A DNA stretch of 43,397 bases. Origin: a virus. The position numbers and the translations under genes are program-made. Positions 24,142 through 26,561 of the stretch are shown one piece after another (position 1 is the first letter of the stretch; every line of letters starts with the position of its first letter). Where the stretch lies: IMG/VR virus record IMGVR_UViG_3300028800_000162, positions 1 to 43,397 of that record; one strand, given 5' to 3'. The notes under the pieces were generated by a model. It was not told the DNA's origin, searched no databases, and saw only the letters and a program-made list of their open reading frames with translations.

Positions 24142-24562
24142 TGTCAGGCAATTCGAGAATAGCCTTGTGGGTTACTTGTTGTTTCGTTTCGACTTTTTGG
24201 ACGATTTGATCGGTTTGACCCAGTAAATTCTTACCCAAAAAGATAGCCATACCTGCGTTTTTCTCTGCTAATCTGAATTGAATTCGTCGAAGGCTGGCTT
24301 TGCCATGAAGTTTGAATCCTTCATAGACTTCTTGAAATGTTTTCTTGTAAAACCGTTCACACCACTTGTTAAGGGTCTTTTGATTGGTGTTTAGAATGGC
24401 TTCGATTTCGTCTACGGTACACAAAGCACGGCATAGATTCTCAAAGATTTTAGAATCGTATTCTCGTTCTGGTCTGCCTTTAGTGCCTTTTTTTCCTTTT
24501 TTGGAATCTTTTTCAGTTCGAACCGTCGGCGTTACTTGCCTTTTTGGTTTTTCTTCTGTCAT
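24107..24562 (-). CDS. terminase small subunit
   Basis: This 151-residue protein is directly before the large subunit. A basic N-terminal tail (1-30) is followed by a helix-turn-helix (about 31-70, with ALCTVDEIEAILNTNQKTLNKWCE) and an oligomerisation part containing RRIQFRLAEKNAGMAIFLGKNLLGQTD (about 93-119), common in small terminases of this class. It recognises phage DNA for packaging. The start overlaps the GNAT frame as ATGA. Confidence 0.85.
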   Translation of the reverse strand: MTEEKPKRQVTPTVRTEKDSKKGKKGTKGRPEREYDSKIFENLCRALCTVDEIEAILNTNQKTLNKWCERFYKKTFQEVYEGFKLHGKASLRRIQFRLAEKNAGMAIFLGKNLLGQTDQIVQKVETKQQVTHKAILELPDNGRRYVGRRED

Positions 24563-25020
24563 GGTTTACCTATGAATTCCCATGAGGTTGTGAATCGGTT
24601 TTTTGAATCCCCACCGAGACCAATCCCAGTTTTTGAATTGTTTACCTGTCTTCCTTGATGGCAACATATCCAATTCTTATTCTTTTTATGTGACGCAATT
24701 CTAGCAGGATGACTGGTTGTTTCCCTGTATCGTTTGCCATTTTCTACGTACATTCTTGCTATCTCATCGGTCATGATTCTGCCAAGACCAATACCCTGAT
24801 ATTCTGGCAGTACCACCAAACGATGGGTTTTGTAAACGTTTTTTGCTTTGGGGTGAGGAAAGAAGATCACCGATATAAACGCACACGGTCTGCCATCAAT
24901 CAACCCAAGATAGCAATCTACGTTACTTGCTAAGGAATGGCTCAAATAGTGATAATCTTTGAAAGCACTCCAAACCTTCCTTTCACAGCAGCGAATCTCG
25001 AAGGATAGACTCGGCCGTCT
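24559..25020 (-). CDS. GNAT (Mom-like) domain in -1 frame of ABC ATPase gene
   Basis: This 153-residue acyltransferase domain is entered from the ATPase frame by a -1 shift at the A7 run. It starts RRPSLSFEIRCCERKVW, then YHYLSHSLA, CYLGLIDGRPCAFISVIFF and HRLVVLPEYQGIGLGRI, the acetyl-CoA binding region, and ends FTTSWEFIG. No ATG precedes the core in this frame (first Met is next to the CoA-binding loop; a TTG at 25065 exists without SD), so it depends on the ATPase start. From memory, related proteins are single ABC-GNAT chains. The YHYLS and QGIGLG parts recall Mu Mom, which modifies adenine in DNA. The substrate here is inferred, not shown. Confidence 0.75.
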   Translation of the reverse strand, partial: RRPSLSFEIRCCERKVWSAFKDYHYLSHSLASNVDCYLGLIDGRPCAFISVIFFPHPKAKNVYKTHRLVVLPEYQGIGLGRIMTDEIARMYVENGKRYRETTSHPARIASHKKNKNWICCHQGRQVNNSKTGIGLGGDSKNRFTTSWEFIGKP

Positions 25021-25637
25021 TTTTTTGAGTCTCGAAACTCCTTTAGGTCCATATCCAAGACCCAATCAGGTTCAAGCCATTCTTCTACGTCATGATGACA
25101 CGTGACAGCGACAAACTGCTTATGCTTCTTCCTATATGCCTTTGCAATCGAATGACTGACCACTTTGGCGACTTGTCTATCCACTACGGAAGTGAATTCG
25201 TCAAACACGATCGTTTCTTTATCATTCAACAAACAGAAAGCTAGGTCAGCGCGCATCTTTTGCCCAGTTGATAGGAAAGCATAGGGGGTGATCCATTCGG
25301 GCGTGCTGCCCATGCCTACGCTTGTTAGCGCGTTCACTATGTCTTGCATGTCATGCGACCCCATCGCTTCGACAAGTGGCACTGAAACGTTTGAAAGCAC
25401 TTGATCTTGATAGACCGTACCGAAGATTTCACGAGCGATAATGCTTTTCCCAGATCCCGAATTGCCTACGATCAAACCAATCTGCCATTCGTCAGGGAAT
25501 TTAAACTCAAACTTCCAGTTTTTTTCGTATAACTTCACGTCGAGATCATAACGATCTCTGACCCACTTGCTGTTAAAGTGGTTCGATTCCGGTAATCGTT
25601 TGGTTATGTCGATTTTTACAGCGTTAGAAGTCGGCAA
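24942..25637 (-). CDS. soluble ABC-type ATPase
   Basis: This 231-residue protein in the zero frame has all ABC motifs: Walker A GNSGSGKS (58-65), signature LSTGQKMRADLA (122-133), Walker B TIVFDE (142-147) and H-loop TCHHD (179-183). No membrane segment is present, so it is not a transporter subunit and is closer to SMC/Rad50-type or modification-linked ATPases. After codon 206 the zero frame runs on for only 25 residues of nondescript tail, while the -1 frame carries a GNAT domain. Slippage would give a 359-residue fusion. It overlaps the ParB-like gene end by 22 bases. Confidence 0.88.
   Translation of the reverse strand: MPTSNAVKIDITKRLPESNHFNSKWVRDRYDLDVKLYEKNWKFEFKFPDEWQIGLIVGNSGSGKSIIAREIFGTVYQDQVLSNVSVPLVEAMGSHDMQDIVNALTSVGMGSTPEWITPYAFLSTGQKMRADLAFCLLNDKETIVFDEFTSVVDRQVAKVVSHSIAKAYRKKHKQFVAVTCHHDVEEWLEPDWVLDMDLKEFRDSKKDGRVYPSRFAAVKGRFGVLSKIITI
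25020..25044 (-). promoter_or_regulatory. dnaX-like -1 frameshift signal
   Basis: On the minus strand, AAAGGAG (25044-25038) is followed after 11 bases by seven A (25026-25020). In the zero frame the codons are TCA AAA AAA, so the heptamer A AAA AAA is in the correct register. The E. coli dnaX signal has an SD-like AGGGAG 10 bases before A AAA AAG. AGACTC just before the A run can also pair with GAGTCT 14 bases after it (six pairs). Confidence 0.7.
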
Positions 25638-26191
25638 GTTAGCCCCCTTTCCTGTAATTCCTCATATAGAGTCCTTTGCTCTTGCTCAGTCGCGCAAGTC
25701 ACTTCGATTGCAAGTTTCTCTTCTGGGTCAATGCCTTCGACTTCTTCATCGTCACCGCAAAGCCCAAGTTCGTCATCTGTCCATCCAATTTCTTTAAGGA
25801 AATCATCTGAGAAATGACTGGTTAAAAGATCGTCGTCAAAATCACCTGAGACTTTATTCGAAGCAAGGCAATAATCGTCCACGTCTTGCTGATCCAGCAA
25901 TCGGTTTGGTACTCTTACCTCGATTTCCTTATCATCCCATCCAATCGCCTTCATAGTGCGAATGCGTTGATGGCCTGCAATAATCATGTTATCAGCATTG
26001 ACTACTGCAAGTTCGACGTAATTGTGCTTCTTAAACGATCTCTTGAGTTTCTCCGCCATGTGTTTGGTCAGGATTCTCGGATTGTACGGATGATCCTTCA
26101 GGTCTGATATCTTCCGTTTTTCCGTCGACCATTCCACTGCTGGGCGTTCCTCGGTCTTCGTTGCTTCCGCTTGATTCTTCTTTTTTGCCAT
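25616..26191 (-). CDS. ParB/sulfiredoxin-fold protein
   Basis: The protein has 191 residues. The ParB N-terminal motifs are visible: DLKDHPYNPRILTKHMAEKL (about 30-49), then VVNADNMIIAGHQRIRTMKAIG (about 63-84, with the GHxR box). The C-terminal half is very acidic. In phages such proteins often lie before the terminase with DNA-modification genes and may act as nucleases, CTPases or DNA-binding factors. I chose ATG 26191 rather than a TTG six bases earlier. Its first 53 codons overlap the preceding gene out of frame (+1). Confidence 0.8.
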   Translation of the reverse strand: MAKKKNQAEATKTEERPAVEWSTEKRKISDLKDHPYNPRILTKHMAEKLKRSFKKHNYVELAVVNADNMIIAGHQRIRTMKAIGWDDKEIEVRVPNRLLDQQDVDDYCLASNKVSGDFDDDLLTSHFSDDFLKEIGWTDDELGLCGDDEEVEGIDPEEKLAIEVTCATEQEQRTLYEELQERGLTCRLLTL

Positions 26192-26561
26192 CTTCAAGTG
26201 CCTTTTTTGCTTGATAATCGTCTAAACGCTTTAGATTATAGTTTTTAATTACTCTTATCATATCTGCGCTTAGTTTTTCAAAAGATTGTGGAGTCATTTT
26301 CACTTGAAAGATTGACTTGCCTCTAGAAACATACGTAAGAATGAAAAAACCAGCTTCATCGTCGAAGGATAAAGTCATGCCAAGCTCATCTTGGTCTAAC
26401 CTTTGAACGAGTGAAGTATGAACGCGGTCGACCAATTCCTTGATTCCTTCGAAATCAGTGGTGGCCTTCAATGGGTCAATCGCCTCGAATTCTTCGAGAG
26501 TGATATTGTTTCGGTGGGCTAGAATAAACTCCACTTTGGTCATGTAGTCTAGATGTTCCAT
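26031..26561 (-). CDS. protein of unknown function
   Basis: The protein has 176 residues. The first 120 residues look like a folded alpha/beta domain (LTYVSRGKSIFQVKMTPQSFEKLSADMI and similar). The last 55 are Ser/Gly/Glu/Asp-rich low-complexity sequence encoded by the same DNA as the start of the ParB-like gene. The low-complexity tail is what a chance read-through would look like. No family recognised. Confidence 0.65.
   Translation of the reverse strand: MEHLDYMTKVEFILAHRNNITLEEFEAIDPLKATTDFEGIKELVDRVHTSLVQRLDQDELGMTLSFDDEAGFFILTYVSRGKSIFQVKMTPQSFEKLSADMIRVIKNYNLKRLDDYQAKKALEDGKKEESSGSNEDRGTPSSGMVDGKTEDIRPEGSSVQSENPDQTHGGETQEIV

Follow-up and report, generated by a model that had tools for sequence, protein, structure and literature searches.

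The DNA analysed here, referred to below as the window, is a virus contig of 43,397 bases from IMG/VR. Its minus strand encodes a large terminase, a portal protein, a head protease, a tail sheath and baseplate proteins; since genes for tail sheath and baseplate accompany those for the terminase, the portal and the head protease, the window can be assigned to a contractile-tailed phage. A ParB-N-like gene and an ABC-type ATPase gene are located just upstream of the terminase genes, and a GNAT domain is encoded in the -1 frame relative to the ATPase (Table 1). This entire locus lies on the minus strand, a point not given in an earlier reading made from the letters of this DNA alone (the sequence-only reading).

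Table 1. Features of the ATPase-GNAT locus in the window and their positions
Feature	Position	Strand	Remarks
ParB-N-like gene	25616..26197	-	Overlaps the ATPase start by 22 nt; PHROG 620 (ParB-like), 1.9e-24
Frame 0: ABC-type ATPase ORF, TTG start, 231 aa (predicted short product)	24942..25637	-	Walker A GNSGSGKS, signature LSTGQ and Walker B IVFDEFTS in the translation; Pfam ABC_tran, 1.4e-7
AAAGGAG, Shine-Dalgarno-like, possible stimulator	25038..25044	-	11 nt upstream of the A-run
A_AAA_AAA slippery heptamer, in register	25020..25026	-	Read as TCA AAA AAA GAC in the ATPase frame
-1 frame GNAT domain with stop	24559..25020	-	Entry at AGA CGG CCG (R-R-P); predicted long product of 359 aa; Pfam Acetyltransf_1, 8.5e-8
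Frame-0 stop TGA	24942..24944	-	Inside the GNAT motif YHYLS (TAT CAC TAT TTG AGC)

The ParB-like neighbour to which the sequence-only reading had drawn attention is real, and it is a conserved companion of the ATPase: it is found directly upstream in 93 of the 122 clusters of related loci with enough flanking DNA, often overlapping the ATPase start. The TTG start of the window ATPase yields an N-terminus (MPTS) that agrees with those of its relatives. The ATPase frame also matches, in part, mad3 of PADLOC (3.5e-14), one of the proteins of the MADS defence system.

The junction between the two frames falls in the last quarter of the ATPase frame. Both the in-register run of seven A and the AAAGGAG sequence ahead of it are present as previously described, and the -1 frame, which is open up to its stop, does encode a GNAT domain (Pfam PF00583; 32.9 bits, cut-off 20.7). 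This domain was said to lack a start of its own; the sole ATG, GTG or TTG codon in its frame ahead of the core is a TTG at 25065 that is not preceded by a Shine-Dalgarno sequence. A slip by -1 would join 206 ATPase residues to a GNAT part of 153 residues, which reproduces the two product sizes predicted earlier. With regard to a programmed -1 frameshift, the window has an X_XXY_YYZ heptamer in register within the overlap of the two frames and, in the -1 frame, a conserved domain (GNAT by both Pfam and PHROG) without a credible start.

PHROG 11143 (357 aa) covers both halves of the locus in order, with the ATPase matching positions 2-196 (8e-54) and the GNAT part positions 196-351 (2.5e-30); that a single profile spans both domains implies that the family is usually made as one chain. 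The shifted product of the window (...KEFRDSKK, followed across the junction by RRPSLSFEIRCC...YHYLS) is collinear with the fused relative L005 (...FEGQKKNRPEIKFEIFQ...HHYLS), and the frame-0 stop falls at the YHYL motif in all 42 scorable clusters that have the GNAT domain at -1. In a confident structure model of the fused relative L019 (mean pLDDT 89.7), the last ATPase strand (195-198) and the first GNAT strand (211-216) are connected by a loop that contains the site, an inter-domain position at which an added domain would easily be tolerated. A single-sequence model of the window GNAT domain had a pLDDT of 31.6 and was not used.

Related loci were gathered with a nine-sequence ATPase profile and with narrower ones, both from viral contigs and from genomes taken one per species; the ATPase and GNAT domains were then located by HMM in three frames, and duplicates were removed. 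Among the resulting 342 loci, which are the best 80 per scan and whose class proportions are not population frequencies, the domains are fused in 248, so that the earlier expectation of single-chain relatives is correct for most of the family; the GNAT domain is found at -1 in 78 loci and at +1 in eight, and no GNAT domain was found in another eight. Grouped at 75% ATPase identity, these loci (the best 80 per scan) form 141 clusters, 44 of them at -1 and one at +1. Four loci (L030, L054, L068 and L079) have 11 A instead of 10 at the linker between ATPase and GNAT, which places the GNAT domain at +1 behind an immediate TAG; these variants might stem from errors in assembly, from phase variation or from slippage of the polymerase.

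A strong heptamer in register is present in 35 of the 44 -1 clusters, against 16.3 expected from synonymous shuffling. The slip sites are mainly A-runs (AAAAAAA or AAAAAAG in register), and T_TTT_TTT, A_AAT_TTT, G_GGA_AAG and C_CCT_TTA also occur. Approximately nine of the 44 clusters are without a strong heptamer and have weaker tetramers instead, which counts against the reading as a -1 shift. The four nearest relatives of the window (L002, L003, L004 and L008; 72-88% ATPase identity) keep the GNAT domain at -1 with an A-run of ten, as compared with the seven of the window; it is therefore the frame, rather than the length of the run, that is conserved. The -1 arrangement is also found in cultured phages, namely P335 of Lactococcus, unk162 of Oenococcus, MismyG and Javan523 of Streptococcus, and 9184 of Enterococcus. 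Its conservation in the A10 relatives, in these cultured phages and across the 78 loci at -1 argues strongly for a -1 frameshift that links the ATPase to the GNAT domain.

The AAAGGAG sequence is kept in L002, is degraded in L003 and L004 and is not a conserved feature across the -1 class, a point that counts against the -1 reading. Upstream of the -1 sites, Shine-Dalgarno cores show no enrichment relative to controls (cores of 4 or more in 22% versus 17%), and these numbers gave no sign of a general stimulation by such sequences. No strong or stable downstream structure was detected either in the window (z about -0.6) or in the -1 class (mean -0.69). It should be noted that A_AAA_AAA without stimulators leads to low levels of frameshifting in E. 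coli assays (PMC4066793), a finding that counts against the -1 reading.

Candidate shift signals are also present at the same linker in the fused genes. An A-run of at least eight is found in 75 fused loci (among the best 80 per scan), nearly always as CAA AAA AAA AAT AGA CC, and a -1 slip in such A10-TAG genes would truncate the product, since UAG would be read at once after the slip. A different, RF2-like signal is present in 157 deduplicated fused loci (again among the best 80 per scan), in which an SD-like AGGGGG or GGAGG is followed by a three-nucleotide spacer and an in-frame CTT (131 loci), GTT (16) or TTT (10). Codon counts at the slip codon are biased because that codon served to define the class. 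An unbiased test, run without selecting loci by motif, asked for in-frame (A/G)GG-N3-(C/G)TT: of the 87 fused clusters that have no A-run, 71 contain it, where the codon usage of each gene predicts 2.0, and it occurs in 0.8% of control windows inside the ATPase. None of the linkers in the 44 -1 clusters carries the RF2-like motif, and the window linker, which has the A-run, is without SD-N3-CTT; strong -1 heptamers, in turn, were found in none of the 87 fused clusters without an A-run. In the RF2-like fused genes, the shift codon is not directly followed by a stop; a sense codon stands there (after CTT usually CGG, CGA, CAA, TGG or AGG), and frame 0 runs on into the GNAT domain. Six further fused loci (L041, L081, L085, L092, L388 and L411) have AGG AGG or AGG GGG, a three-base spacer and then CAA or GAA followed by A, with no CTT; this variant is possibly a further +1 shift site, and the second frame is kept open in those members that were checked.

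A +1 slip in the RF2-like fused genes enters the same frame, relative to the GNAT domain, that the -1 genes use as their frame 0. In the 22 codons that precede the YHYL motif, this short-product frame stays open in all 42 of the -1 clusters, where 21.6 would be expected (p about 3e-16), and in 65 of the 66 RF2-like clusters, where the expectation is 41.9 (p about 1e-16); these probabilities are too small, since they treat as independent a set of clusters that share descent. Even so, the contrast between the two alternative frames stands: the third frame shows no excess openness over the same 22 codons (3 versus 3.2 expected in the -1 clusters, and 22 versus 25.9 in the RF2-like ones).

A tree of the ATPase part alone requires about 11 changes between the -1 and the fused design, and its well supported branches force at least three for the -1 label; hence, one design has given way to the other on several occasions. 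By phylum, the RF2-like signal is found in 33 of 33 genome loci from Planctomycetota, 12 of 12 from Pseudomonadota and 4 of 4 from Actinomycetota. The Bathyarchaeota loci comprise 16 at -1 and one at +1, and those of Bacteroidota three at -1, one with an A-run and one RF2-like. It is tempting to read this pattern as a signal type that follows the host's use of Shine-Dalgarno sequences. The metagenome-assembled genomes of Bathyarchaeota carry several copies each, some with two per contig (L104, L106, L110, L111, L114, L118, L120, L121, L126, L133, L139, L148, L150, L153, L154, L163 and L164); nearly all of these copies have the -1 design with A_AAA_AAA, and a ParB-like gene lies upstream in the one that was checked (L120). 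A multi-copy archaeal family with a -1 frameshift would be unusual.

From these sequence comparisons we consider it highly probable that the window locus is one gene programmed to yield two proteins with a common ATPase part, a predicted ATPase and an ATPase-GNAT protein. Most ribosomes on this gene would make the 231-residue ATPase, and some, with AAA AAA in place, would slip back by one base on the A-run and continue to the 359-residue form. Three alternative signals would thus operate at the linker across the family: a -1 signal that gives access to the long form, as in the window phage; in fused genes, an A-run with UAG behind it, where a -1 slip would produce the short form; and SD-N3-CUU in other fused genes, where a +1 slip would do the same. 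The conserved trait would then most likely be the pair of products and their ratio, rather than the kind of slip.

The same pair of products might also be obtained if RNA polymerase, instead of the ribosome, were to slip on the A-run and generate mRNAs of altered length. Among the A-run members of the -1 class, 19 of 27 have 9 or 10 A; runs of nine slip efficiently in vivo, and Thermus dnaX makes use of this very route (PMC5009743). The A11 variants at +1 also fit such a process, which is possible for the A9-A10 members of the class. It is a weaker option for the window with its seven A, as it is for the six A7 clusters, and a slipping polymerase would show no preference for -1 as against +1, whereas 44 clusters were observed at -1 and one at +1. 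Furthermore, some of the -1 loci have mixed, non-homopolymer heptamers (AAATTTT, GGGAAAG, CCCTTTA), and the RF2-like class is without any run; in our view, slippage of the polymerase is unlikely to be the source of the two products.

Another way to account for the split frames is a GNAT protein made separately from its own start, through translational coupling or reinitiation. The depositors of the P335 and Oenococcus phages annotated two genes, the frame-0 stop of the window overlaps a TTG (TTGA), and in the Thomasclavelia phage TR-TP1 (L013:3480-3510) GGGGGAG stands eight bases before an in-frame TTG, from which the GNAT part of this phage may be translated. The TTG at the stop overlap of the window, however, lies well within the GNAT fold, past its first strand and helix, and the -1 class often has TTA, CTA or CTG in the place of this codon; the codon is not conserved as a start, and reinitiation at this overlap was thereby ruled out. 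Upstream of the GNAT core, 26 of 42 -1 clusters have no ATG, GTG or TTG in the GNAT frame at all, and a start codon with a Shine-Dalgarno sequence was found in one of the 42 (TR-TP1). A separate start would, moreover, require neither shift signals nor an open second frame in the fused relatives, and we regard it as highly improbable. The sequence-only reading had named homologues with their own starts, along with an eighth A in the run, as the observations that would speak against it; both are largely excluded, since such starts are plausible in TR-TP1 only and the near relatives keep the -1 relation at a different run length.

It is extremely unlikely that the frame break stems from faulty sequencing or assembly or from decay of the gene, despite the metagenomic origin of the contig, the error-prone nature of homopolymers and an in-frame stop that interrupts the GNAT part in phage pT24: the identical break occurs, always at the same linker, in at least five independently sequenced cultured phages and in many metagenomes, frame 0 is always open up to the YHYL motif, and the conservation of the -1 relation in the A10 relatives and the cultured phages makes an indel error in the window itself very unlikely, so that both an indel error and a pseudogene were discarded as candidates.

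Programmed frameshifting at this linker, our preferred reading, can be compared with two known systems. The likeness to dnaX (tau/gamma) drawn by the sequence-only reading fits in several respects: one gene gives rise to two products with a common ATPase part, the longer of which has an extra C-terminal domain; the slippery heptamer is rich in A and, in the window, is preceded at about 10 nt by a Shine-Dalgarno-like sequence; and different lineages reach the product pair by different slips, as they do for dnaX (PMC5009743). It does not extend to the polarity, because a long form that needs the shift is an arrangement that the same review calls rare for dnaX. The proteins are also unrelated, the window family has no conserved downstream stem-loop, and the frame-0 tail of the window continues for about 26 codons past the site rather than stopping at once. 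The second comparison, with prfB, concerns the fused relatives and not the window. The published geometry of the prfB +1 site, an SD-like sequence, a three-nucleotide spacer and CTT in register (PMC12421855), is matched in the 157 RF2-like fused loci (AGGGGG/GGAGG, three nt, CTT); in contrast to prfB, there is no stop after CTT in these genes, and it is the short form that a +1 shift would yield. According to the authors of PRFect, all RECODE +1 entries with the CUU-stop motif are prfB (PMC10885494).

Taken together, we think it likely that, in phages, bacteria and archaea alike, the linker acts as a conserved hub for recoding, where two products are under selection and unrelated signals of opposite direction (-1 slippery runs, and a +1 element of the RF2 type that lacks a stop codon) swap with each other, apparently by host, and that this would be the first large gene family outside prfB with an RF2-type element. 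Textbooks present such an element as the signal of a single gene, and family-wide conserved programmed frameshifts are, to our knowledge, rare. As read by host, the sampled Planctomycetota, Pseudomonadota and Actinomycetota would all rely on +1, and Bathyarchaeota together with most Bacteroidota on -1 or an A-run. If this reading is true, cells and phages select for a product ratio that is reached by whichever slip is available, and the short form must matter, which would provide a handle on an uncharacterised family of phage enzymes.

The function of the two products can be outlined only in speculative terms. The ATPase and the ATPase-GNAT protein probably work with the ParB-like protein encoded upstream; mixed ATPase assemblies might form in which some subunits carry a GNAT domain to acylate a target, and the product ratio may set the make-up of such assemblies, by analogy with tau and gamma of dnaX. 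DNA as the target is a published guess: a family of ABC ATPase and GNAT proteins was noted earlier (Tenacibaculum phage pT24; QAX98348.1) and predicted to acylate a DNA base (PMC7824862), and DNA modification by the family is so far that prediction only. The locus of QAX98348.1 (L016) belongs to the same protein family as that of the window (PHROG 11143). In the pT24 locus (L427), the GNAT part is ended by an in-frame stop 63 codons past the ATPase end. The text found on that family makes no mention of a frameshift, and the open-access literature searched yielded no account of frameshifting in these proteins.

Although Mu Mom and the GNAT part of the family are both called GNAT-superfamily proteins (PMC7824862), the description of the window domain as Mom-like did not withstand profile comparison: hhalign of the family against Mu Mom gave a probability of 0.1 (E 0.61), the GNAT part does not match the Mom PHROG 1384, and Mom has no fused ABC ATPase. 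A Foldseek search with a fused relative returned ABC ATPases and nothing on the target of the GNAT domain.

In the public records of three relatives (L010, L011 and L423), the ParB-like gene is named 'DNA modification methylase', the ATPase 'ABC iron siderophore transporter' or 'ABC-transporter', and the GNAT part is split off as a hypothetical gene. These annotations are likely wrong, and entries that list two genes or an 'iron siderophore transporter' would need correction.
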